A stretch of DNA of 64,000 nucleotides. Origin: Rugalucina vietnamica. Lineage: Eukaryota; Mollusca; Bivalvia; Lucinida; Lucinidae. Position numbers and translations under genes: made by a program. Shown here in pieces: positions 1,230 through 24,063 of this stretch (positions within the stretch are counted from its first letter, which is position 1; every line of letters starts with the position of its first letter). The stretch spans positions 52,376,760 through 52,440,759 of the forward strand of contig OZ024873.1 in NCBI GenBank assembly GCA_964017185.1, given 5' to 3'. The notes beneath the pieces were generated by a model. It did not search any database and was not told the DNA's origin. It worked only from the letters and a program-made list of their open reading frames with translations.

Positions 1230-1380
1230 TTTTAGTCCGGCATGTACCCAAGATGACCGTGCAATAGCGTCTATAGAAAATGTTTTTACAGAAATAAGTT
1301 GCTATGAGTATCCTGATTTGAAATCCGGATGATGCCAGATTGGCATCCTTGGGCAATTCAAGATGGCCGCCAAAATCCAA
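1230..1380 (-). repeat. Repeat segment, inverted copy at 11.47-11.61 kb
   Basis: Shares with 11475-11605 (inverted) the phrases TGCCCAAGGATGCCA, ACATTTTCTATAGACG, TATTGCACG and GCCGGACTA. It leads directly into the GATGGCC tandem block, as its partner does, so the two form one composite old repeat present twice in opposite orientations. Confidence 0.7.
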
Positions 1381-1960
1381 TATGGCCGACAAACGAAGGG
1401 TTTTTGATAGAATTCCGTACAGATATCTGATGAAATGCTAAATGCTTGCCTTAAAGTTAGAGAAATGATAAAGTTTAGTCTTTTTCATCAAAACGCAACA
1501 AAATAAAAATAACAAAATCAAGATGGCCATCAAAATCCAAGATGACCGACGAAATAAGGGCTTTTGGAAGAAGTTCTTACATGTATGTGATGAAATGTTA
1601 AAAGAGGTCATTTAAAGTGGAGAAAACTTCAAGTTAAGATATTAATTTCATTAATACATGCATGCAACAAAAGCAAAATTAATAAAGATGGCCACTAAAA
1701 TCCAAGATGGTCGACAAAATGTTAATTTAATAGAATTTCATCAATATATGTGGTGAAATGTTAAAAATATGACATTGAATGTGCAGAGGTCATAAAGCTA
1801 AGGTTGTTCATGAATATGTAACAAAAGCTAAAATAGAAATGGTTGCTAAAATTTAAGATGGTCACCGGGAAGTAGATAGAATGTGTTTGGGTATGAAGAA
1901 ATGAAATGAAAAATCCATTTCTGTGTTTTATTGAACAAAATTCAACAAAAACTGCCAAAA
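1355..1960 (-). repeat. Degenerate ~160-bp tandem repeat with AAGATGGCC core
   Basis: About four diverged units recur with a spacing of roughly 160 bases. Each holds a pair such as AAGATGGCC...AAGATGGCCGAC (near 1360, 1521, 1685 and 1840) followed by a TGAAATGTTAAA-like stretch. It is the same family as the block at 10965-11465, in the opposite orientation. There are no coding features. Confidence 0.7.
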
Positions 1961-2338
1961 CGCCAATATAATCTCCATAATTTGAATTTTAGAAAACTTA
2001 ATTTTAGAATAACCTGATCATGTACAAATAGTAGATTATACATTAGTAATCTACTGTCAAGCAATGCTGTCTACTGACATGATTAAAGCATTACAAATAA
2101 TTACAATGCTAGGAACAATTTTACTTTCGCCTGACTGTTTCAAAGGTATAGGTAGAATATGATGGAAGTCAGATATGGTAGAATATGGTGAGATGGATAG
2201 GATGGGGTTTAACGTATTATGACGACTTGTTAAAAAGCGGTTGGCTGTGTATGATATGTGTAGAGACTAAAATATGGGTTAAGTGGCCTCCACTGGGGTT
2301 GGATAGGGGTTACAATCGATAATGTGGGGATTTAAGTA
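1961..2338. other. AT-rich spacer, nothing recognised
   Basis: No gene, RNA or structured repeat was seen between the tandem block and the Penelope-like tail. Confidence 0.5.
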
Positions 2339-2727
2339 GGACCGAAGAACTAACTAAATGTTATGAACCACTGCAGAAGCTGAGGGTGAGGTTATGGCCA
2401 TGTAAAACCGGTTTAAGCTAGCCAGTAATTTTGTGTTACTGATCGTTCCAAGGCGATACTTCTGTGGTGGTTCTTTTTGTTTTATGTCTTGGTGTTTAAA
2501 AATATTTTTTGTGCTGTTGGCGCCTTATGTTTGTTTTCATATTTTTAGTTAAGTTTAGGTGACTGAGTGGCCACCTATTGGGAAATAGCTAGTCATTTGG
2601 CTTAAGATATGTTTTCATGGTGTAAGTACCTGATTGTTAATTTAGTTTTTTCCCCACCTCGGTTTTTGGAGTAGAAATCTTTTTCTGATTGCGCCTTTTC
2701 CTGATCTTTGCCTACTTGTACCTTTTT
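2339..2727 (+). mobile_element. Penelope-like retroelement, 3' tail (copy A)
   Basis: 5'-truncated copy consisting of 3' untranslated sequence only. It shares with the longer copy at 39.7-41.9 kb the blocks CACTGCAGAAGCTGAGG, TGTTACTGATCGTTCCAAG, CACCTCGGTTTTTGGAGT and the terminal CCTACTTGTACCTTTTT. The LTR retrotransposon lies within 5 bases of its 3' end. Confidence 0.8.
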
Positions 2728-2902
2728 AATCTGTTATGTATGACAGTTACTTGTTGAAAGATGTGCATTCAGTACTGGTAAACTTCCCAAGGGAGTATGC
2801 CCAGGAAAGTATGATGTTATACATATGATGTTTACTTGTTGTCCTTAGCAATTATTTACTTTTAGTGTCCCAGATATTGGACATAAACAGGTTGTTTACT
2901 TC

Positions 2903-3138
2903 AGAATTTTCTAGAAATTTCAAATTGTTCTTTGACGGAAAAGTCAGGAAAAATCTGGAAGAACCAAAGATGTAGAATCTTCTAGAAAAATCTTTTTTTT
3001 ATGTCAAAAGAATATTGTGGAATTTTCTGGAAGGATAATGGCCTCTCTAGAATATTCCAAAACATTAAATTTTGGTAAACAACTTGTTATTTTTAGTATA
3101 TGATATCATAGAATTTGCTGGAAGAATCCTGAATGTTC
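2903..3138 (+). promoter_or_regulatory. Array of heat-shock elements in the LTR (HSF sites)
   Basis: Five clusters of alternating GAA/TTC triplets at exact 5-bp spacing, the binding pattern of heat-shock factor trimers. 2904-2921 is GAAnnTTCnnGAAnnTTC (four perfect units). 2975-2987 is GAA/TTC/GAA (three perfect). 3010-3032 is five units with one imperfect. 3050-3057 is GAA/TTC. 3111-3138 is six positions in register, two imperfect, ending 8 bases before the TATA box. The arrangement resembles a heat-shock gene promoter. The same array sits in the 3' LTR at about 8985-9221. Heat induction itself is inference. Confidence 0.8.
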
Positions 3139-3146
3139 CTCAGTGC

Positions 3147-3154
3147 TATATAAG
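3147..3154 (+). promoter_or_regulatory. TATA box of the LTR promoter
   Basis: TATATAAG follows the last heat-shock cluster, so transcription would be expected to start about 25-35 bases downstream, near 3180. The copy in the 3' LTR lies at about 9230-9237. Confidence 0.7.
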
Positions 3155-3564
3155 GGCTACAAATTTTCATAAGGACAATCTTTGGGTACTGTTACTATTA
3201 AGAAGTCAAAATCTATCTTACTGGAATTTAAACTTATTCTTGGATTACTTTGTGATATTCGATTCTGGATTGGGACATAGTGCTATTTTGAAACAAACTT
3301 TAATTCTTGGGATCAGAAACTGATACAGACTTGTGTTAAAAAATTCTGAGGGACATTCAGACATTCTTTAAGGGAATTAACATCTTGAAAGGTATTGTAC
3401 ATTCATTTTTGTTTGATTGTATATATGCTTTTGATTGTTTCACATGTAATTACTGGTTAAATCACTTCTAAATAGATTTGTTAAATTTTAAACAAAGCTT
3501 GTTGCTGGCTAACCAACTTGTTGGTTTCCTTAATCTTCTAGTTACGCCTGGCACGTAACAGAAT

Positions 3565-3585
3565 TGGGGGCTCGAGTCCGGGATT
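3565..3585 (+). other. tRNA primer-binding site
   Basis: Starts four bases past the 5' LTR with TGGGGGCTCGAGTCCGGGAT, complementary to a tRNA 3' end including CCA. It resembles the tRNA-Pro-type site of many retroelements with a small internal difference. The exact primer tRNA was not established. Confidence 0.65.
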
Positions 3586-3673
3586 GAAATTTCTTGTGCA
3601 CCAAATTTATTTAAAATTCTAAAGTATCTTCACTGTTTGCTGTTTAAATAGCTAAAGCCAGCAAAAAGCAACC

Positions 3674-5110
3674 ATGTCATTCAAACTAAGTGACTTTATT
3701 GCTGCGCCTTCTCAGGAGCTGTTAGATAAGGCCAAAAAGAGTGACCTCTTAGACATAGCTGATCATTATGGGTTGTCAAATATCAAGACTTCCATGTTAA
3801 AACATGAAATTAAGAACATTTTGATTCAGTTTTTTGTTGACGAGGAAATTTTTGATTCCTCGGCTACTTCTCAGATTCTAGTCACTCAGACTGACTTGCA
3901 GTTGAGGGAACTAGAAATCAAAAGACAAATTGAGATGGAAAAACTAAAATTTGAGTATGAAGAAAGAATAAGGTTGGAAACTTTAGAACGGGATGAAAGA
4001 ATAAGGGCAGAAAAGGCCGAAAGGGAAGAAAGAATAAGATTGGAAACTTTAGAACGGGAAGAAAGAATGCATAAACAAAAGTTAGAAATGGATAAACAAA
4101 AGTTAGAAATGGAAGAACGAGAGAAGGAAAAACAAAGAGAATTAGAACGAGAAAAAATTGAGTTAGAAAAAGAAAAATTAGAAAGAGAAGAAAGGCTTGA
4201 AATTGAAAAAGAAAAATTTAAATTTTGAAATTGAAGAAAAAGAAAGAGAAAGGCAATTTCAGTTACGAATGAAGGAAATTGAACTTAATGACAAATCAAA
4301 ATCAAAATCTTTGCCTTTGGCTACTAGTACAGTATTTGATGTCACAAAACACATTCGTCTCGTTCCTCCATTTCAAGAAAAAGAGGTTGACAAATATTTC
4401 TTACATTTTGAGAAGGTGGCAGAAAACTTGAAATGGCCAAGAGAGCACTGGACCTTGCTTTTGCAAAGTGTTGTAATTGGTAAAGCTCGAGAAATTTACA
4501 CTCAGCTTTCTCTTGAGCAAAGCTCAGATTATGATACAGTAAAAGAATTTATTCTTAAGGCTTATGAGTTGGTCCCTGAGGCATACAGGCAGAAATTTAG
4601 AGAATGTAGAAAAGAACATGACCAGACTCATGTTGAGTTTGCTAGAACAAAAGAGCAACTATTTGATAGATGGTGTTCTTCAAAGAAAGTAGGTTCTGAT
4701 CATGCAAAGCTAAGGCAGCTCATGCTTGTTGAAGAATTCAAACGGTGCATAAATTCTGATGTTAAGGCTTTCTTGAACGAAAGAGAAGTTGAAAACTTGG
4801 AAACAGCAGCACGTTTAGCTGATGACTATGCTTTGACTCATAAGGCTTCATTTGTCAACAAGCCATATCCTAGGAAACCATATAACCCTCAATCAAAGCA
4901 AATTACCCCTCAGTCAAAACCATATTCCCCTCAGTCCGGTCCCAAAGCCAATCCCAGTAATCCAACTGACAATTCCAGTCCAAAACCCAAATTTTCTAGT
5001 GAAAACAAAGGACAAAATCCCTTATCCCAGCCAATTTGTAATTATTGTAAGAAAACTGGCCACATTATTTCTGAATGTTTGGCACTGAAACGAAAGAAAG
5101 AAAAAGAAAA
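3674..5110 (+). other. gag region: coiled coil, SCAN-like capsid, zinc knuckle
   Basis: Domain region of the LTR element. The first ~600 bases encode a very long charged helix rich in Glu, Lys and Arg (repeats of the LEREER type). About 4572-4845 encodes a capsid segment with the helical pattern of a SCAN domain (motifs FDRWC, LRQLMLVEEF and FLNEREVENL). About 5037-5078 encodes one CCHC knuckle, CNYCKKTGHIISEC. The published link between Gmr1 capsids and vertebrate SCAN domains supports the family call. It is part of a broken fossil element. Confidence 0.85.
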
Positions 5111-5299
5111 TCTAGATAGTGCTAAACCGACAGGTCTCACCCCCTTAAAGGCTAAACCACAGTCTTGTATCCAGGAAGAAAACCCTATACTGACCAGAAC
5201 CTGTAAAGAGTCAGTCTCTGAGGATTCTATTATGGAGATTTATGAACCATTCTTATCAGATGGTTTTGTGTCACTTAACAGTGACTCTGCCCAGTCTAC

Positions 5300-5570
5300 C
5301 CCTATCAAAATCTTACGAGATACCGGAGCTTCTCAATCCCTTATCTTGGCAGATACCTTGCCATTTTCCGAGAAGTCTTCTTCTGGGACAAGTGTCCTTA
5401 TCCAGGGCGTAGAGTGTGGATTTGTTAATGTACCGCTCCATAATATCTATTTGTCCTCAGACTTAGTTAAAGGTCCCGTGGCTGTAGGTATTAGACCTTC
5501 CTTACCCTTTAAAGGTATTCATTTGCTGTTAGGCAATGATTTGGCAGGAGATAAGGTTGTGGTAAACCCA
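5300..5570 (+). other. Aspartic protease domain
   Basis: Retroviral-type protease region with the active-site signature RDTGASQSLI and a downstream hydrophobic strand followed by LLLGNDLAGD, the usual gypsy protease layout. It sits between the zinc knuckle and the integrase. Confidence 0.85.
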
Positions 5571-6089
5571 CTTTTGACCAGCACACCATGTGTTGATCAA
5601 CCGCCTGATCCCATTGAGCAGGAAATTCCTGACCTTTACCCTTCTTGTGCTGTCACTAGGGCAATGGCAAAGAAAGCCAAATTATATGATGGGATGCAGG
5701 ACATAAATTTAACTGACACTTTGATAGGTCAGTCCTTTAATAAAGAGATTTCAACATCTCTTTCCCCTAGTCAGTCTGATATTCAGACTGACCCTAACAA
5801 TCCAAGGTCGGGGTCAGAAAATGACCTTTCACCCTCAACGTCAAATGATCAAGGTCATGACCAGATGTCAAGGTCACAGCTTTGTAAAGAACAACACAGT
5901 GATTCTGATATCTCGCCTTTATTTGAAAGGGCTTTTAATGAAAATGAAATATCCCAGGTTCCTGTTTGCTATTATATCAAAAATGGCATTTTGATGAGAA
6001 AATGGCGTCCTCCGGATGTCTCCGCAGAAGATGAGTGGACTGTTAACCACCAAATTGTGGTTCCTAGGGTTTATCGCCCTGAAATCTTA

Positions 6090-7120
6090 AACTTGGCTCA
6101 TGAAACACCCATGTCAGGCCATTTAGGTGTAAATAAGACCTATCACAAGATCCTTAATCATTTCTACTGGCCAGGAATAAAATCTGATGTATCTCAACAC
6201 TGCAAATCCTGCCACACTTGTCAGATGGTAGGAAAACCCAATCAGACTATTCCTAAAGCTCAGTTACAGCCCATTCCTGCCTTTGATGAACCTTTCAGCA
6301 GAGTGATTATTGATTGTGTAGGTCCCTTACCCAAAACAAAGAAAGGTTGTGAATATCTTCTGACCATAATGCGTGCTTCAACTCGCTTTCCTGAAGCTAT
6401 CCCACTCAGAAATATCAAGGCTAAAACAATAGTTAATGCACTTGTGAAGTTCTTCACATTTGTAGGCCTCCCAAAATCTATCCAGTCAGACCAGGGCTCA
6501 AATTTTATGTCAGGAATTTTTCAGCAAGTTATGTACGAACTTGGAATTAAGCAATACAAGTCATAGGCTTACCACCCTGAAAGCCAAGGTGCCTTAGAAA
6601 GATTCCATCAAACTTTGAAAAACATGATCAGATCTTACTGCTTTGACACTGAAAAAGATTGGGATGAAGGCATACACTTGCTTCTATTTGCTGTAAGAGA
6701 ATCTGTACAAGAGTCTCTGGGGTTCAGCCCATTTGAGCTTGTTTTTGGGCACACTGTACGTGGACCGTTAAAACTTCTAAAAGAGAAATTTCTCTCAGAT
6801 GATGACAGTTCTTTGAACTTACTTCAGTATGTGTCTGATTTCAAAAACAGACTATCAAAGGCCTGTGATGCAGCTCGGTCCAATCTCAAATCTGCTCAAA
6901 GCAAAATGAAGATTCGTTATGATGAAAATGCTAAAGACAGAAATTTTGAACCTGGAGACAAGGTACTTGCTCTCTTGCCCATTCCTGGCAGACCTTTACA
7001 AGCTAGATATTATGGCCCGTATACTGTTGATAAAAAGTTAAGTGACGTGAATTACATTGTTAACACTCCTGGGAGGCGCAAGCAAAAACAGATACGTCAC
7101 ATTAATATGCTCAAGAAGTA
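6090..7120 (+). other. Integrase region (HHCC, DDE core, GPY/F-like tail)
   Basis: Zinc-binding N-terminus with HLGVNKTYHKILNHFYWPGI and CKSCHTC. The catalytic core shows IIDCVGPLP and then SDQGSNF. The terminal module contains RYYGPYTVDKK, a chromointegrase/GPY-type motif. It lies upstream of the reverse transcriptase, the reverse of standard Ty3/gypsy order and diagnostic for Gmr1-like elements. Confidence 0.9.
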
Positions 7121-7309
7121 TATTGATAGGGATATTTCTGTTATTTCATCAGTAAATATAGTTAATTCTGTCCCTCATGAACAAAATCAAATGGACTCTG
7201 AGGACTTCAACTTGGAGAAATCTGATCCCTCGTCATCGAAACTCCAGAATTCTGACATACTACAGAATCTTGATCAGAAACTGTCTCACCTTGATTCAGA
7301 CAAAAGACT

Positions 7310-8663
7310 TGAACTGAAACAGTTAGTTCTCGAATATGAGCACTTATTTCCAGACATTCCATCCAGAACTGACAAAATCTATCATGATGTTGACATTATT
7401 GAAGGTTCAAAACCTGTAAAGCAACATCCTTACAGAATGAACCCTGTAAAACAGCAGTATCTCAGGGAAGAAGTTCAATATTTGCTGGACAATGATTTCA
7501 TTGAACCCAGCCAAAGTGAATGGAGTTCTCCTTGTATTCTTGTACCAAAGCCAGACGGGACATTTAGAATGTGCACAGACTATCGAAAAGTCAATTCTGT
7601 CACTAAAACAGACACTTTTCCCATCCCACGAATCGATGACTGCATTGATAATATTGGACATGCCAAGTATGTTACAAAGTTCGATCTGCTAAAGGGATTT
7701 TGGCAGATACCCCTCACGGACAGAGCAAAGGAGATCTCGGCATTTGTTACACCAGATGGACTGTACCAGTATAAAGTCATGCCATTTGGAATGAAGAACT
7801 CGCCTGCGACTTTTCAGCGGCTGGTCAACAGTTTGATTTCCAATCTGGATGGCTGTAAATCCTATATCGACGACGCTATTATCTTCAGTGAGGAGTGGCA
7901 ACAACACTTGCAGACAATCAGAACATTCTTTGACCGGCTAAGTGATGCTAAACTAACTGTGAACTTGGCAAAAAGTGAATTTTGCCATGCAAACTTGACA
8001 TTTCTTGGACACATTGTAGGTCAAGGTCAGGTAAAACCTGTAGAAGCTAAAGTTGAGGCTATCTCAGATTTTCCTGTACCTACTAGCAAAAGACAACTGA
8101 TGCGCTTTCTGGGTATGGCTGGATATTACAGGAAATTCTGCAACAACTTCTCGGCTATAGCTGAGCCTCTGACAAACTTGCTTGGTAAGAAGGCCAAGTA
8201 TGTTTGGACAGATGACTGCCAGAAGTCATTTGATAAGCTCAAGGCCATACTTAGAAGTGCTACGGTTCTCTTAGCACCAAGTTTTGACAAAGAGTTCAAG
8301 TTGGCTGTAGATGCCAGTGATGTTGGTGCAGGCAGTGTATTGTTGCAAGAAGATGACAATGGTGTTGACCATCCTGTTTGTTATTTTTCCAAAAAGTTTA
8401 ACAAGCATCAGAGAAATTACTCTACCATAGAGAAAGAATGCCTATCTCTAATCCTTGCACTTCAGCACTTTGAAGTTTACTTAGCTTCTTCACATGCACC
8501 AATTGTTGTCTTCAGTGACCACAATCCACTGACTTTCATACATAAAATGAAAAACAAGAACCAGCGTTTACTCAGGTGGAGTCTCATGTTGCAAGAGCAC
8601 AATCTTGACATCAGACATATCCGAGGAAGAGATAATATCATTCCAGACACCCTAAGCAGAGCT
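7310..8663 (+). other. Reverse transcriptase and RNase H region
   Basis: RT motifs in order: KPDGTFRMCTDYRKVN, KFDLLKGFWQIPL, FGMKNSPATFQR and the catalytic YIDD. A connection containing FLGHIVGQGQV follows, then RNase H (DASDVGAG, SKKFNKHQRNYSTIEKE, SDHNPLTF, DTLSRA). The motifs are Ty3/gypsy rather than copia or Bel type. Pol ends here, with no integrase downstream. Confidence 0.93.
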
Positions 8664-8666
8664 TAA

Positions 8667-8813
8667 GTGCCTCTACAATGCTGATGTCCAGCTTTGTGCT
8701 GTTGTATTTGATTAGTTTTGCACAAATTTTGCTAAACATATTGTATACAATTATCCAGTATTGCAAAAGAAAGCTTTATTTTATAAAACTTTCTTTTCTT
8801 TGAAGAGGGGAAG
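8667..8813 (+). other. Post-pol spacer and polypurine tract
   Basis: Short non-coding stretch after RNase H ending in the purine run GAAGAGGGGAAG directly against the 3' LTR, the plus-strand primer site. There is no envelope gene between pol and the LTR. Confidence 0.85.
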
Positions 8814-9643
8814 TGTTATGTATGACAGTTACTTGTTGAAAGATGTGCATTCAGTACTGGTAAACTTCCCAAGGGAGTATGCCCAGGAAAGTATGATGTT
8901 ATACATATGATGTTTACTTGTTGTCCTTAGCAATTATTTACTTTTAGTGTCCCAGATATTGGACATAAACAGGTTGTTTACTTCAGAATTTTCTAGAAAT
9001 TTCAAATTGTTCTTTGACGGAAAAGTCAGGAAAAATCTGGAAGAACCAAAGATGTAGAATCTTCTAGAAAAATCTTTTTTTTTATGTCAAAAGAATATTG
9101 TGGAATTTTCTGGAAGGATAATGGCCTCTCTAGAATATTCCAAAACATTAAATTTTGGTAAACAACTTGTTATTTTTAGTATATGATATCATAGAATTTG
9201 CTGGAAGAATCCTGAATGTTCCTCAGTGCTATATAAGGGCTACAAATTTTCATAAGGACAATCTTTGGGTACTGTTACTATTAAGAAGTCAAAATCTATC
9301 TTACTGGAATTTAAACTTATTCTTGGATTACTTTGTGATATTCGATTCTGGATTGGGACATAGTGCTATTTTGAAACAAACTTTAATTCTTGGGATCAGA
9401 AACTGATACAGACTTGTGTTAAAAAATTCTGAGGGACATTCAGACATTCTTTAAGGGAATTAACATCTTGAAAGGTATTGTACATTCATTTTTGTTTGAT
9501 TGTATATATGCTTTTGATTGTTTCACATGTAATTACTGGTTAAATCACTTCTAAATAGATTTGTTAAATTTTAAACAAAGCTTGTTGCTGGCTAACCAAC
9601 TTGTTGGTTTCCTTAATCTTCTAGTTACGCCTGGCACGTAACA
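8814..9643 (+). repeat. 3' LTR
   Basis: 830 bp, matching the 5' LTR except for one extra T in a T-run. It is followed by AATC, the target duplication. Confidence 0.96.
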
Positions 9644-10964
9644 AATCTGGTTTGGTTATGGATCCACTCCCTAGTCAACAAATATTCCGTCATATTGTGA
9701 CAAAGCAACTACTCTCTTGGTACTATTCTCAATAGAGTCATAAGAGGAAATGTTTTGTGCTCATGTAACAGCTGCGTATGAAGCTAACACTCGCTGTAGA
9801 AGCCGGTTTGATTCTCAAAGCAGTACAAATTCTATTACTGGTCTGTGGGGCCCAAGCCTCTTCAAGTGAGAACAGAAACTCTGAAACCAGAACTGTTATT
9901 TAAATAAAATAAAGCGACAATAACACATGTTGTATGTGTTATACCAATGCAATGAAGATTCCCAGTTATTTTGCAAGCATCAGTCCTTCAAAGAACTCAT
10001 TCCACAGAAAGTTCATTTCTAGTGATATGTTTTCGTATATGTTGTTCCTATAAATCTAGATCTAGCATCTGATTTCTGTTCCGGTATTCTATGTTGGAAC
10101 TTTGCAGGACGGTAGCACTGTTAGTTTGGACAGTTTCTCAGTTGTTGATGTGGTTGGTCATGTGTAGTTCCGCTACGGGCCTTACACAATGCCTGGTATG
10201 AATCTTATTCATTTTAAAGTGATGCTCTTTCACATACACTATTACAGAAAGGCATACATGAAGATAAAATAAGACTTGCATGAATTGGTAACTGATCACA
10301 ATGATAACATGTACGCATTGGCGTTCTTGCAACTGCATATCTAGAAATCGTTATCCGCCACCGAGTCATATATCATTCTCTCAAGCTTTGTCCGAAAGTG
10401 CATTCACAACCGAAAAAATAAATGAAAAGAATGGAACGAAACCGCAGTTGTTGGATAATTATACTTGGTGGTAATATCGCTCACTGGTTTTCTTTGTCTG
10501 GATAGGGAGGACTACGCATTGTTTGTGCTCTTGGTCAATCCTCAATTATCAGGGTTACTCTATGCTATATTAAGGCATATTTTTTCCCAGATACAATATG
10601 TTGAGATGACTATCCGAGATTATACATCCTTTTTCGGGATATGCATGTGAAACCACTACAACTAGACTGTGACAGCATAATTGAACATGTATCTGAAATG
10701 GTATATCTGTAGGTAACTCACGAATCGTGAACCATACTCCTGAGCAATCTCAGCATTGGCTTGTTTCAAAATATGCAAAAATGCAGTTACTATTAAAGAG
10801 ATAGCACAAATGTTCTATTACAATATTATTATGTCATTTAGGGATACATCAAATTGATATGTAGTAATGTTATGTTCAAGGCTGTATATGCTTTAATGTC
10901 CCATTTTTGTGGCATTGACCGCAATTCATCAACAACAAGAGTTTATTTTGGGTTACTGTCATTT
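9644..10964. other. No gene seen
   Basis: AT-rich sequence between the LTR element and the next tandem block. Short frames here lack domain signatures, and no RNA gene or inverted repeat was recognised. Confidence 0.5.
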
Positions 10965-11465
10965 AAATAAACTATATTGGCCGCCATCTAGGACGCCTTC
11001 TTGTGTCTAACAAACTATCCAATGATAAATGATTATGATGCATATCATTTATTTTCACAATTTATTGACCATAACAGAGCAATTCAGAAATAATACGAGT
11101 GTTATATGTGTCCATTTTATGTAAATAACACTTTTGGCCGCCATCTTGCACGCCATCTTGTATCTATCAAACTGCCCAATGATAAAATAATTAATATAAT
11201 TTAATTACACAATTTATTGACCATAAAAGAGCAATTTAGAAATAATATGAATGTTATATGGGTCCATTTCATGTAAATAACACTTTTGGCCGCCATCTTG
11301 GACGCCATCTTGTATCTATCAAACTCTCCAATGATGAAATGATTCATATAATTTAATTTCACAATTTATTGACCATAAAAGAGCAATTTAGAAATAATAC
11401 GAGTGTTATATGGGTCCATTTTATGTAAATGATATGTTTGGCTGCCATCTTGGACGCCATCTTGA
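10965..11465 (+). repeat. ~155-bp tandem repeat with GCCGCCATCTTGG core
   Basis: Four units marked by GGCCGCCATCT / GACGCC at about 10981, 11138, 11291 and 11441. Each contains TTATTGACCATAA and AGCAATTTAGAAATAATA. Neighbouring units look more alike than the block at 1355-1960, of which this is the inverted relative. Confidence 0.85.
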
Positions 11466-11469
11466 TTTC

Positions 11470-12130
11470 AGCGAGTTGCCCAAGGATGCCAAAGTGGCAT
11501 CACTTGGTTTTGTAATGTACTATGTATTCTCTTTCAAAAAATGCTAAAACATTTTCTATAGACGGTATTGCACGCTTTGGCTGATATTCTAGGTTTCTGT
11601 GCCGGACTATTTGTTCCCAGGGTGGGTAATTAACCGACTGTAGATTATGCTATATAATTCAGATTTTGTAAAATAATGAAGCTTCACACGACGATGTGTT
11701 TGTATGTCGTTAAACCTTTAATGCGCACTGTCCATAGTAAAATCTAATTTTGAATTTGAATGCATTGGAACTGTCAAAAACTAAAATGGATTCATTTAAT
11801 TAAGGATCTGTGTAATGATTTGGCTTTGTTATTGTTTTATTAAAGACGGTGCTATTACATTGTATTGTCAGCTTGATCTGCAATAATTCAATTCAGTCAC
11901 AAACGAACAGTTTTAATCATGTCCTTGTTGTCTCTTATTTGTTGAAACACTTCCTACAATTCATCTGTTCATAAAACGACCAAGGTAATTGAATTCTTGA
12001 AATGCCGCTGTACGCTTTAGCTCATATAAGCCGAAGGCTTAAAGGGGGAGTTTTTTTTAGAATGAGTAGGCCGTTACCCGGCGTTCGTTCAACCTTCCAT
12101 CCTGAGTCCGTTCGTCAAAATATTCAAACT
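11470..12130 (+). repeat. Inverted-duplication arm 1
   Basis: 11612-12130 is the reverse complement of about 17485-18238, sharing TGTTCCCAGGGTG, GACGGTGCTATTACATTG, CAGTCACAAACGAACAG and GCCGCTGTACGCTTTAG. Arm 1 lacks the 239-bp MITE found in arm 2 and is interrupted at its right side by a mariner-like element. 12030-12120 includes the hairpin end of an AGCTCACC-type cassette. Confidence 0.85.
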
Positions 12131-17344: not shown

Positions 17345-18240
17345 TACCTTTCTCCCAAATTTACCCTTAATGACGTTTCATGACGAATTGATACCATCGG
17401 GTCCTGAACAAAAACTCAGTTACTCGTTCCCGCCACCTGTAGATGATATATGTCTTATAAATATGAAAGCAGTCGGCCTTACGGCCTCGGACGAGAAGTA
17501 GTTTGAAAAGGACGGACGGTCGAACGGACGCCGGGTACCTGCCTATTCTATAAGCTCACCTTTGAGCCTTCGGCTAAGGTGAGCTAAAGCGTACAGCGGC
17601 ATTTCAAGAATTCAATTAACTTGATTGCTTTATGAACAGACGAATTGTAAGAAGACCTGCGTTCATGATGATTCAACAAATAAGAGACAACAAGAACATG
17701 ATTAAAACTGTTCGTTTGTGACTGAATTGAATTATTGCAAATCAAGCTGACAATACAATGTAATAGCACCGTCTTTAATAAAAGAATAACAAAGCCAAAT
17801 CATTACACAGATCCTTAATTAAATGAATCCGTTTTAGTTTTTGACAGTTCCAGTGCATTCAAATTCAAAATTAGATTTTACTATGGACAATGCGCATTCA
17901 AGGTTTAACGACATACAAGCATATCGTCGTGTGAAGCTGCATCTTCTACCAAATCTGGGCCCAGTTGTTCAAAACTAACGACGTCGTTAGTTAACGTTTC
18001 GTTAAATTTTTTTGTAACATTAATATTACAAATACATGTACACTGTAATTTTTTGTTGAAAAAATGAAAGGATTCTCACATTTTTTTCAACAAAAAATAA
18101 CAGTGTATTTGTTACTTTTGCTGATATTTGCTTAACAAATTTATGTCTTAACGATATCGTTAAGCTAACGATGCTTTGAACAACTGGGTCCAGTATTATA
18201 TATCATAATCTACGGTCGGTACCTCACCCTGGGAACAAAA
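17345..18240 (-). repeat. Inverted-duplication arm 2
   Basis: Reverse-complement partner of 11612-12130 plus 13450-13565. It includes a cassette end (AGCTCACC...GGTGAGCTAAAGCG, about 17540-17586) and is split by a 239-bp MITE absent from arm 1. The lack of the mariner-like element here shows that element is younger than the duplication. Confidence 0.85.
17955..18193. mobile_element. MITE with CTGGGCCCAGTTGTTCAAA ends
   Basis: 239 bp, with inverted ends CTGGGCCCAGTTGTTCAAA / CTGGACCCAGTTGTTCAAA and second inverted blocks ACGTCGTTAG / ACGATATCGTTAAG. Arm 1 carries the corresponding empty site near 11660. Similar ends are common in animal MITEs; the superfamily was not decided. Confidence 0.85.
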
Positions 18241-21153: not shown

Positions 21154-24063
21154 TTCCTAAACCTACCGAAATTATATACATATGTGTAATTGCTTGAAAT
21201 TGCTAGTCGATTTTGAAGTAGAGGATACCGACGCGTTACTAAGTGACGGTCATTCTTTATTGAAATGGTCTCTCTGTGCCAAACCCAATAATGACGCTGA
21301 TGATGTAACTCAAACAACACATAAACTCCATAAAAACTGGGATAACCGACGAATTGATGACTTCATATCAAATATACCCATTGGAAAACTCAACGATATA
21401 TGCACAAACTTACAACCCAACAAGGCATCTATTGACGACGCTGTAACAGAAGTATCAAATATATTCGCAACAGCTGCCAAAATGTCATTTCCGGTACATT
21501 CTAATAAAACAAAAACATCTAATCATAAGGCTTGGTTTGGTCCAAAATGCTACAATGCTCGCGCGACGTACCGCAAAGCTAAAAATAAATTAAGACGCTC
21601 TAGAAATGAATATAACGCCACAAAGCTCCAGGAATCAAGCAAACAATACAAGAAGGTGATGAACTTTTTTATAAACCAGCATAAACGGAAAAACGCTGAT
21701 AAACTGAGGCAAATGCACACGCGTCAACCGAAGGAATATTGGCGTTATCTAAAAAGTATTTCAAAAAACACCTCTCGTGAAAAATCCCCATCCTTGCAAC
21801 AATTTTTTGAACATTTCCAGAACACAAATGCTTCTGAAATAAACGAAGAGTTCGTATTTGAGCACTCAGAATATCAGTCTGAGAATTTTGATAATATTCT
21901 AAACTCTGCAATAGTAGAATCGGAAATTAATGAGGCTATTATGGGCCTAAAGTTGGGCAAGTCGCCTGGCTATGACGAAATAGTAAATGAGCATATTAAA
22001 TCAACCAAATCGTTGTTGATGCCACTGTATATAAAACTTTTTAATACTGTTTTTGAAACTGGTATTTTCCCACAAGCTTGGCTACAGGGAAAAATCAGAC
22101 CTATCTATAAAAATAAAGGCGACCGACTCAGTCCAGAAAATTATCGTCCAATAACAGTTCTTAGCTGTTTAAGCAAACTTTTCACCTCTATACTCAATAA
22201 TAGGCTCACTAAATTTCTTGAATTTCATACAGCACTCGACGAAAACCAGGCAGGATTCCGTCATGGATATGCAACAACAGATCACATATTTACTTTAAAT
22301 GCAATAATCGAATTACTGAAATCAAAAAAGAAAAAATTGTTTTGTACTTTTACAGATTTTTCCAAAGCATTCGATACTGTCTGGCGAATTGGATTATGGG
22401 GAAATTTATTGAAAGAATCAATAAATGGAAAAATATTTCGTATAATACATAACATGTATCAAGGAATCAAATCTAGCGTGTCTGTTAATAATGAACACTC
22501 AGCTTTCTTTGCCTGTGAATGTGGTGTTAGACAGGGAGAAAATCTCTCGCCAATCCTCTTTTCCTTGTATTTAAATGACCTTGAGCACTTTTTATTACAC
22601 AAAAATCTTAATGGATTAACAATTGATATTACAGATGACGAAATAATGATATACATGAGACTCTTTACCCTACTATATGCTGACGACGCGGTGTTAATGG
22701 CAGACAGCCCTGAAGATATGCAAAAGTGTCTGGATGCTTTTTCGGAATATTGTCAAACATGGAAATTACATATAAATATAGATAAAACAAAGATTATTAT
22801 TTTTGGAGGCAACAAACAGACGAACTCAAATTTTAGCTTTATCATTGATAATAAAGAAATCGAAATTGTTGATAAATATAAATATCTCGGCGTTTGGTTC
22901 TCGCAATCTGGCAGTTTCTCTAACACAAGGAAACATATAGCACAACAAGCTAAAAAAGCTATGAACCTACTCTTTATAAAAATAAATAATTTAGATATTC
23001 CTTTAGACTTGCAACTGAAATTATTTGACCACACAATTGTACCGATACTTACATACTCCTGCGAAGTATGGGGTTACGAAAATCTCGATCTAATTGAAAA
23101 AGTACAAAGTGACTTCCTTCGTAGAATCACACTAGCGAGAAAGAGTACTCCTCTTTACATGCTCTATGGTGAATTAGAGAGAACTCCAATAAATATAATA
23201 GTTAAGTCAAGAATGATAGGCTATTGGAATAAAATTATTAAAAGCAAGGGTATCAAAATTTCTTTTCTCATCTATCAATGTTTAATACACACGCAGACTT
23301 TTTCTTCCACATGGATTTCTCATATTAAATCAATATTAAATCAAATAGGCCGTCCCGACCTTTGGCAGCTACAACAAAATATTCAATCGAATTCCCTGTC
23401 TCACCTCACTAAACGCATCCTAGTATCTCAATTCATCCAAGAATGGCGCGCTAAAGAGTCACAGTCTCACAAAGCGTTGGTGTACTTTAGTTTCAAACAA
23501 AACCTCGAATTAGAAAAATATTTTACAATATTACCACGTAAATCGTATCTACTAATTTTTAAACTAAGAACTGCAAATCATAAATTACCGGTTGAAACAA
23601 GCCGTTGGGAAAGAAACGCTAGAAATGAACGTACCGCTAGAAACGAACGTAACGCTAGAAATGAACAACTATGCCCATTGTGCAATATCCGTGATGTTGG
23701 AGACGAGTTCCACTATATTTTTAAGTGCTCCTTCTTTGACCAGGAAAGAACGAAATTTCTAAAACCCTATTTCTTAACACGACCGAGCATGTACAAATTA
23801 GGACAACTAGTACAAACCTCAAATGAAGGAACGTTGAAGAAACTGTGTATGTTCTTAAAGATAATATTCGATAATTTTAGATAGCTACCAGCACGAACAA
23901 GAAACCTATGTACAACGTGTACATATTTCCAATCTAATACAGTATCAAATTTTTCTGTTTAACTAAACAAAACATACTTGCAGACAGAATCAACCGAGCT
24001 TTGTTTTAATATCATTCCTTCCATGTTTGCTCAATACTACATGTATCAGCTTGTAGGCATATA
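21154..24063 (+). mobile_element. LINE (APE-type, jockey/CR1-like), 5'-truncated
   Basis: Non-LTR retrotransposon body: the end of the endonuclease domain, the full reverse transcriptase and the C-terminal cysteine motif. About 180 bases of 3' flank or untranslated region precede the mariner-like element. The 3' end was not identified with certainty because no tail repeat or target duplication was found. Confidence 0.85.
21182..23884 (+). CDS. LINE reverse transcriptase ORF, 5'-truncated (900 codons)
   Basis: Encodes the RT protein of a non-LTR retrotransposon, which copies element RNA into DNA at a nicked chromosomal target. Residues 19-27 (LLSDGHSLL) look like the last active-site strand (SDH-type) of an AP endonuclease, so most of the endonuclease is missing and the start codon is only the first Met of the surviving frame. 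RT motifs: GKSPGYDEI near 259, RPIYKNKG near 306, YRPITVLSCLSKLF near 321, QAGFR at 356, FTDFSKAFDTVW near 390, GVRQGENLSPILFSLYLND near 448, and the catalytic YADD at 499-502. Residues 831-849 are CPLCNIRDVGDEFHYIFKC, the usual C-terminal zinc-like motif. Just before it is a short in-frame repeat of ARNERN/T (about 807-828). The frame is open throughout the RT, which suggests a young copy. Sub-family (jockey, CR1, Nimb or related) was not decided. Confidence 0.92.
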   Translation: MCNCLKLLVDFEVEDTDALLSDGHSLLKWSLCAKPNNDADDVTQTTHKLHKNWDNRRIDDFISNIPIGKLNDICTNLQPNKASIDDAVTEVSNIFATAAKMSFPVHSNKTKTSNHKAWFGPKCYNARATYRKAKNKLRRSRNEYNATKLQESSKQYKKVMNFFINQHKRKNADKLRQMHTRQPKEYWRYLKSISKNTSREKSPSLQQFFEHFQNTNASEINEEFVFEHSEYQSENFDNILNSAIVESEINEAIMGLKLGKSPGYDEIVNEHIKSTKSLLMPLYIKLFNTVFETGIFPQAWLQGKIRPIYKNKGDRLSPENYRPITVLSCLSKLFTSILNNRLTKFLEFHTALDENQAGFRHGYATTDHIFTLNAIIELLKSKKKKLFCTFTDFSKAFDTVWRIGLWGNLLKESINGKIFRIIHNMYQGIKSSVSVNNEHSAFFACECGVRQGENLSPILFSLYLNDLEHFLLHKNLNGLTIDITDDEIMIYMRLFTLLYADDAVLMADSPEDMQKCLDAFSEYCQTWKLHINIDKTKIIIFGGNKQTNSNFSFIIDNKEIEIVDKYKYLGVWFSQSGSFSNTRKHIAQQAKKAMNLLFIKINNLDIPLDLQLKLFDHTIVPILTYSCEVWGYENLDLIEKVQSDFLRRITLARKSTPLYMLYGELERTPINIIVKSRMIGYWNKIIKSKGIKISFLIYQCLIHTQTFSSTWISHIKSILNQIGRPDLWQLQQNIQSNSLSHLTKRILVSQFIQEWRAKESQSHKALVYFSFKQNLELEKYFTILPRKSYLLIFKLRTANHKLPVETSRWERNARNERTARNERNARNEQLCPLCNIRDVGDEFHYIFKCSFFDQERTKFLKPYFLTRPSMYKLGQLVQTSNEGTLKKLCMFLKIIFDNFR

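Follow-up and report, generated by a model that had tools for sequence, protein, structure and literature searches.

The best-known LTR retrotransposons driven by heat are those of plants. In the Brassicaceae, ONSEN/COPIA78 and further COPIA elements that respond to heat carry HSF-type sites in their LTRs, ONSEN having one 4-unit and one gap-type site (as described in the cited parts of PMC3907296 and PMC5059998), and among the Brassicaceae COPIA elements strong predicted HREs are reported to go with heat induction (same part of PMC5059998). HSF1 has also been reported to act on a retroviral LTR, that of HIV-1, by way of a heat-shock element (HSE) (PMC9367301, in part), and the LTR elements TCN3 and TCN12 of Cryptococcus are described as moving at 37 C and as having putative HSEs in their LTRs (PMC12810828, in part).

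The locus described here lies in a 64,000-nucleotide stretch of DNA from the lucinid bivalve Rugalucina vietnamica, the whole of which we call the window. An earlier note on this DNA, made from its letters alone, drew a parallel to ONSEN, and as a parallel, that of HSF-type sites in an LTR, it holds. We consider it likely that the array of GAA/TTC triplets in the window is an enhancer of HSEs in the U3 promoter of a young, multi-copy Gmr1-like Ty3/gypsy retrotransposon that is driven by heat or HSF. This reading sets out from direct observations: how the array is built, how it compares with shuffled sequence, where it sits, that the family members examined have it, and that four of seven host hsp70 upstream stretches resemble it.

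The retrotransposon and the array in its U3

The whole retrotransposon occupies 2732-9643 in the window (Table 1). Its two LTRs (2732-3560 and 8814-9643) align with zero substitutions and one length difference, in a T-run. Among the copies compared, GAATTGGGGG stands 3' of the LTR in most 5' or shared LTRs, and AGAGGGGAAG stands 5' of the 3' or shared LTRs. The primer-binding site (PBS, 3565-3586), which like the polypurine tract lies at the expected place, is what we take to be a tRNA-Pro-complement-like sequence with two extra bases in its middle. Pfam matches follow the order SCAN (in gag, E 3.6e-11), integrase zinc domain, integrase core, integrase C-terminal part, reverse transcriptase and RNase H, with integrase 5' of reverse transcriptase (H2C2 and rve in 4182-6563, then p58_C, RVT_1 and RNase H in 6567-8663). 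The window copy has a gag frame change between 4182 and 4228 and an integrase frame broken by TAG at 6564-6566.

A gag capsid related to the SCAN domain is a Gmr1-like trait. The Gmr1 clade of Ty3/gypsy is marked by a gypsy-type pol in which integrase comes before reverse transcriptase, according to the cited part of PMC6238403. Because integrase precedes reverse transcriptase and gag is SCAN-like, we classify the element, on these sequence features and on its LTR pair, PBS, polypurine tract (PPT) and short target duplication, as a Gmr1-like Ty3/gypsy retrotransposon. Membership of the ONSEN/COPIA78 family (Ty1/copia) was also considered and is ruled out by the Ty3/gypsy-type matches to the integrase zinc domain, p58_C, RVT_1 and RNase H. 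Among the matches listed, the closest named relative of the pol protein, at 83%, is filed under a bin of Candidatus Thiodiazotropha endolucinida, a lucinid symbiont, and further relatives at 64-72% are from another lucinid-symbiont bin, a coral, a hemichordate, a brittle star and a sea cucumber; many of the close relatives listed carry integrase and reverse-transcriptase domains together. The pol proteins filed under symbiont bins appear to be bivalve host DNA, and these protein matches by themselves would point to a bivalve as the probable host of the window.

Table 1. Features of the retrotransposon and of the array in its 5' LTR (window positions; a dot marks features given no strand)
Feature	Position	Strand	Description
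Target-site duplication AATC, left	2728..2731	.	directly before 5' LTR
5' LTR	2732..3560	+	829 b, TGTTAT...GTAACA; aligned to 8814-9643
HSE cluster 1	2904..2921	+	four perfect units GAA-TTC-GAA-TTC
HSE cluster 2	2938..2960	+	step-type: GAA at 10-bp steps, GTC and ATC between; from mismatch-tolerant scan
HSE cluster 3	2975..2987	+	three perfect units
HSE cluster 4	3010..3032	+	GAA-TTG-GAA-TTC-GAA: three perfect units (3020-3032) and one gapped
HSE cluster 5	3050..3057	+	two units, 40 bp from cluster 4 and in phase; weak alone
HSE cluster 6	3111..3138	+	GAA-TGC-GAA-ATC-GAA-TTC, adjoins TATA; perfect pair at 3131-3138
TATA box	3147..3154	+	TATATAAG; read in sequence
Primer-binding site (PBS)	3565..3586	+	from sequence; GAATTGGGGG
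gag start, first open piece	3656..4228	+	assigned by position; no Pfam match; frame shifts in overlap with next piece
gag remainder with SCAN-like match, protease region, integrase H2C2 and core	4182..6566	+	Pfam SCAN, Integrase_H2C2, rve; protease by position; ends at in-frame TAG
Integrase C-terminal part, reverse transcriptase, RNase H	6567..8666	+	Pfam Integrase_p58_C, RVT_1, RT_RNaseH
Polypurine tract (PPT)	8802..8813	+	before 3' LTR; AGAGGGGAAG
3' LTR	8814..9643	+	830 b; same HSE array at 8986-9221
Target-site duplication AATC, right	9644..9647	.	directly after 3' LTR

The earlier note had described five clusters of GAA/TTC triplets in 5-bp register next to the TATA box, a description that our scans confirm and find slightly understated. 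Runs in which GAA and TTC alternate perfectly at 5-bp spacing are found at 2904-2921 (four units), 2975-2987 and 3020-3032 (three each), and 3050-3057 and 3131-3138 (two each), the last ending 8 bases before TATATAAG; a mismatch-tolerant scan gives six segments, adding the step-type cluster at 2938-2960 and extending runs to 3010-3032 and 3111-3138. Mismatched units mostly retain their G or C, the exception being TTG at 3015-3017. Three of the U3 runs have at least three alternating nGAAn/nTTCn units at 5-bp spacing, which is the definition of an HSE, and strong HSEs are present in the LTR upstream of the TATA box. All nine 5-bp pairs of the LTR fall within 2903-3146, with zero in 2732-2902 or 3147-3560. 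The step-type class of HSE is defined in PMC4552642, the cited part of which attributes low-level activation to such sites and repression to one atypical step-type site.

The density of the array had been claimed to lie far above chance, and this is borne out by the extreme enrichment that a motif scan with shuffled controls returned. In the main control, consisting of 1,727,388 dinucleotide shuffles of 2903-3146, the observed 9 pairs were reached by 0 of 1,727,388 (maximum 7). Neither the pair count nor the count of runs of at least three units was reached by any of 5,000 shuffles of the LTR or any of 10,000 shuffles of 2903-3154. In the same two controls, respectively, the count of runs of at least two units was reached by 1/5,000 and 3/10,000, a run of four by 2/5,000 and 5/10,000, and the plain triplet count by 46/5,000 and 88/10,000. 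Because the triplet count was matched in some of these shuffles and the pair count in none, the striking part is the order of the triplets rather than their content. Alternating pairs number 9 at spacing 5 and 0, 1 and 0 at spacings 3, 4 and 6, the excess lying mainly at spacing 5 and its multiples. In the remaining 62,340 bases of the window there are two runs of three and no run of four. The LTR has a lattice sum of 59; 3,000 shuffles reach at most 33 and 536 other windows at most 18.

Several other features of the window were recorded. A 152-b unit is present in three tandem copies of 84-100% identity at 11035-11490, an array adjoined by an inverted repeat pair (11665-11949 / 17669-17953), and a LINE-like 907-aa open reverse-transcriptase frame (RVT_1) at 21161-23884 is matched in the protein collection, over 80% of its length, by a 98% relative. 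The observed/expected ratio of CpG is 0.20 in the 5' LTR (0.10 in U3), 0.34 in the element interior, 0.92 in 9644-64000 and 1.08 in the LINE-like frame; the low values in the element could be methylation scars or reflect escape from methylation.

Family members, recent activity and variation of the array

The array was followed through two sets of LTR stretches. The first comprises 40 stretches, namely 39 of the 40 best LTR places (all but the window's own 3' LTR) and one (L041) whose place was guessed from spacing; its members are non-independent, as they include the window's own 5' LTR (L002), its local duplicate (L003) and several LTRs of one element or multimer. The second was drawn from 40 of 63 pol places, picked by pol similarity to a foreign relative. 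All 40 members of the first set are 99.4-100% identical to the window LTR; in the second set, where some alignments are partial, the main alignment gives 94.2-99.5%. Clusters were scored in 79 anchored LTR stretches, the window's own among them; one stretch without anchors (L101) was left out.

The very recent insertion claimed in the earlier note stands, the LTR pair being without substitutions. Copies elsewhere in the genome have open frames of up to 1,673 aa, so intact-looking copies exist. Judged from the substitution-free LTR pair, the 40 LTR stretches at 99.4-100% and these long open frames, the family is recently active.

The 1.09-Gb genome (47 contigs) contains 1,386 exact copies of the cluster 1 18-mer and 0 of its reversed control. 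The 18-mer makes up 87.8% of the sites of the GAA-first four-unit pattern GAANNTTCNNGAANNTTC, which has 1,578 occurrences (reversed-pattern control, 114). The TTC-first four-unit pattern has 964 occurrences (control, 88), and the places listed for it are other, often palindromic sequences, not the LTR of the retrotransposon. Over both orientations the 18-mer accounts for 1,386 of 2,542 sites (54.5%, an approximate figure because a five-unit array counts in both patterns). The first 100 exact 18-mer places include 41 same-strand neighbour pairs 5.5-10.4 kb apart and 20 unpaired places, and 27 of the 41 pairs are at 5.97-6.10 kb, the period of the element. The 1,386 18-mers appear to lie in LTRs of the family, and the intact site was seen directly in 40 first-set and 38 second-set stretches. 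It is possible, though we hold it to be doubtful, that this one retrotransposon family is the largest single source of strong HSEs in the host genome, its 1,386 exact four-unit sites presumably standing for the most part in LTRs that have further clusters. Other sequences, many of TTCATGAA type, match the TTC-first four-unit lattice in the genome; because such other repeats do so, a lattice match alone is no proof of an HSE in the host genome.

Some copies are arranged in tandem. A head-to-tail multimer at G000:C3:33172743-33210088 (L005, L016-L019, L025, L041) has seven LTRs ~6.07-6.09 kb apart, its inner LTRs flanked as PPT-LTR-PBS and with CTTT at both outer ends, and a PPT-LTR-PBS junction is also present on C11 (L022). 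The local duplicate of the window LTR, L003 (G000:C5:52370534-52374367), belongs to a 99.87% copy of window 1233-5065, including the AATC flank, that lies 7,457 b upstream and is either a local tandem duplication or an assembly duplicate. A search of the viral contig collection returned no relatives, and the genome contig collection yielded one, a 5.5-kb contig in an archaeal bin (L001) with pol 60% identical, which we take as contamination; this contig, which may not hold a whole LTR, lacks any run of three perfect units. Queries with proteins 78% and 67% identical to the window reached, in the 63 places scored of ~5,100 candidates each, what is apparently the window's own family, and as no diverged sister family was reached, the array is undated.

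Loss of the register in other family members had been put forward in the earlier note as a test of its reading, and the outcome is mixed but mostly favourable: the strong clusters are kept, whereas weaker ones vary, largely in 10-bp steps. Clusters 1 and 3 are each intact in 78/79 LTR stretches, and the tested part of cluster 6 (3111 to 3136) is unchanged in 75/79. Cluster 2 is missing one 10-bp unit pair in 9/79, cluster 4 is shortened in 11/79 and cluster 5 is changed in several copies; a TGG insertion in 15/79 joins clusters 2 and 3 into one 11-unit lattice, and ~40 b are missing in 3/80 arrays. Since array variants recur, there have been active subfamilies that differ in their arrays. Most change in the array seems to come about as 10-bp unit pairs are gained or lost, by which the register is kept, and changes in 10-bp steps are seen directly among copies.

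Distinct substitutions in the second set number 26 in the 75 core bases, 8 in the 38 lattice spacers, 47 in the 125 neighbouring non-lattice bases and 84 in the 591 other LTR bases; without one edited copy (L093) the counts are 19, 8, 25 and 83. With or without that copy, these counts give no depletion of substitutions on core triplets relative to neighbours, the sign of base-level constraint that was looked for, so it may be youth, and not selection, that accounts for the intact strong clusters. The first set has 3 core changes among 22 within 2903-3140, where ~7 would be expected, a shortfall that the second set did not bear out. Again without L093, the 39 core bases of clusters 1, 3 and 6 carry 5 changes and the 36 of clusters 2, 4 and 5 carry 14, a difference that is a post hoc hint. 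Copy L093 itself has 31 A-to-G changes confined to ~100 bases (3001-3103, window numbering) among its 35 LTR substitutions, a patch that looks like ADAR-type editing fixed in DNA.

This pattern of variation bears on an alternative that we regard as unlikely, in which the array is mainly a decayed 10-bp minisatellite (GAANNTTCNN) driven by slippage, its HSE likeness is a by-product and the role of HSF is small. The 10-bp deletions among copies, the TGG insertion that makes an 11-unit lattice from clusters 2 and 3, the undepleted core triplets, an array region more variable than the rest of the LTR, and period-10 arrays of ~2 units that TRF gives in three clusters would all be expected of it, but the clusters are separated by unrelated sequence, their spacer dinucleotides differ, and slippage predicts neither a placement just upstream of the TATA box nor a likeness to hsp70 upstream regions. 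An origin by slippage and use by HSF can both hold, and duplication of a proto-HRE has been described in ONSEN (PMC5059998, in part).

Host hsp70 upstream stretches and the proposed use of the array by HSF

Host hsp70 genes served as a positive control for the HSF-driven reading. The PF00012 profile found eight near-full hsp70 frames in the genome, and upstream stretches of 1,061 b were scanned for seven of them, leaving out the frame on C11, which has no first-exon match listed; the stretches begin at the Pfam match, which need not be the start codon. Lattice sums of 47, 51, 57 and 42 were obtained for L103, L104, L105 and L106, in 5 to 7 segments each, which lie mostly within ~450 b of the coding match and upstream of a TATA box and include 3- or 4-unit sites. 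L107 scores 21, with one 3-unit and two 2-unit runs just upstream of TATA, and L108 and L102 score 18 each. Background windows of the same length have a maximum of 18, reached by 31/533. Four of the seven host hsp70 upstream stretches have a layout and score like those of the LTR, and three are at or near background; the proposal that the promoter mimics those of heat-shock genes is upheld by the former group and not by the latter.

Two finer properties of the array were also compared. T[A/G] junctions (6/8 in the LTR array, against 5/30 in background) and purine flanks (18/20) are biases not common to host hsp70 sites, which have 5/18 and 27/55 in the seven upstream stretches. The junction-dinucleotide and purine-flank tests, supportive against the window background, were dropped as HSE support since the host hsp70 sites are without the bias; spacer and flank letters are not part of the HSE definition.

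Reasoning from the sequence together with the hsp70 control, we propose that heat or proteotoxic stress would bring trimers of host HSF onto the 4-unit and 3-unit sites, with step- and gap-type sites assisting. HSF would then drive transcription from the TATA box at 3147-3154, with a predicted start downstream of TATATAAG, and the stress-raised genomic RNA would feed a new round of retrotransposition, for which ONSEN is the precedent (PMC3907296 and PMC5059998, in part). The promoter most likely responds to HSF, and heat stress probably turns the element on; heat-induced transcription may in this way have helped the family to spread.

It is also conceivable, but in our view quite improbable, that the sites bind HSF and serve basal or developmental transcription, for example through HSF active in the germline or in larvae, and not a heat response. 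The sequence offers no means of telling stress-related from developmental use of HSF, and Drosophila copia is described as transcribed without heat (PMC3907296, in part). Against this, 4-unit and 3-unit sites are the type found upstream of four of the seven host hsp70 genes, which may be heat-inducible. STAT, ETS and TEAD have GAA/TTC or GGAA half-site motifs and several GGAA are present in the array, but it is scarcely credible that such a factor reads the region, the excess being one of alternating 5-bp register, with zero pairs at spacing 6, which rules out STAT.

Comparison with other known elements

If the HSF-driven reading is correct, the family combines high copy number, recent activity in an animal and an hsp70-like promoter, and would make it possible to test directly whether retrotransposition in a (probably marine) animal rises during heat waves. 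A second question that could be tested is whether a retrotransposon can supply most of the strong HSF sites of a genome and so reshape the stress response.

Among the papers listed by searches of the open-licence PMC literature, no title or abstract opening describes an animal Ty3/gypsy element with an HSE array, and the main text of PMC6238403, on the Gmr1 clade, has no word beginning 'heat'. The general kind is already known from ONSEN, Drosophila copia, HSF1 at the HIV-1 LTR and Cryptococcus TCN3/TCN12; unusual here are the density of the array, the clade of the element and the genome-wide share. Drosophila copia belongs to the copia superfamily and is said to fall short of high affinity by at least three nGAAn copies (as cited in PMC3907296, in part). 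HIV-1 is a retrovirus, and the cited part of PMC9367301 does not describe a dense array for it, whereas the Cryptococcus elements are fungal and have one or two sites (PMC12810828, in part). The Caenorhabditis Helitrons are DNA transposons, not LTR elements (PMC6927752, in part). With the Gmr1 clade the present element shares a gypsy-type pol that has integrase placed before reverse transcriptase (PMC6238403, in part). As for ONSEN, two of its LTRs are described as without CG sites in the cited part of PMC3907296, and here CG sites are few. Unlike the Brassicaceae COPIA elements, which are plant Ty1/copia elements with one or two HREs per LTR in the sources cited, the element described here is an animal Ty3/gypsy element of Gmr1-like type with six predicted clusters and >1,000 site copies.
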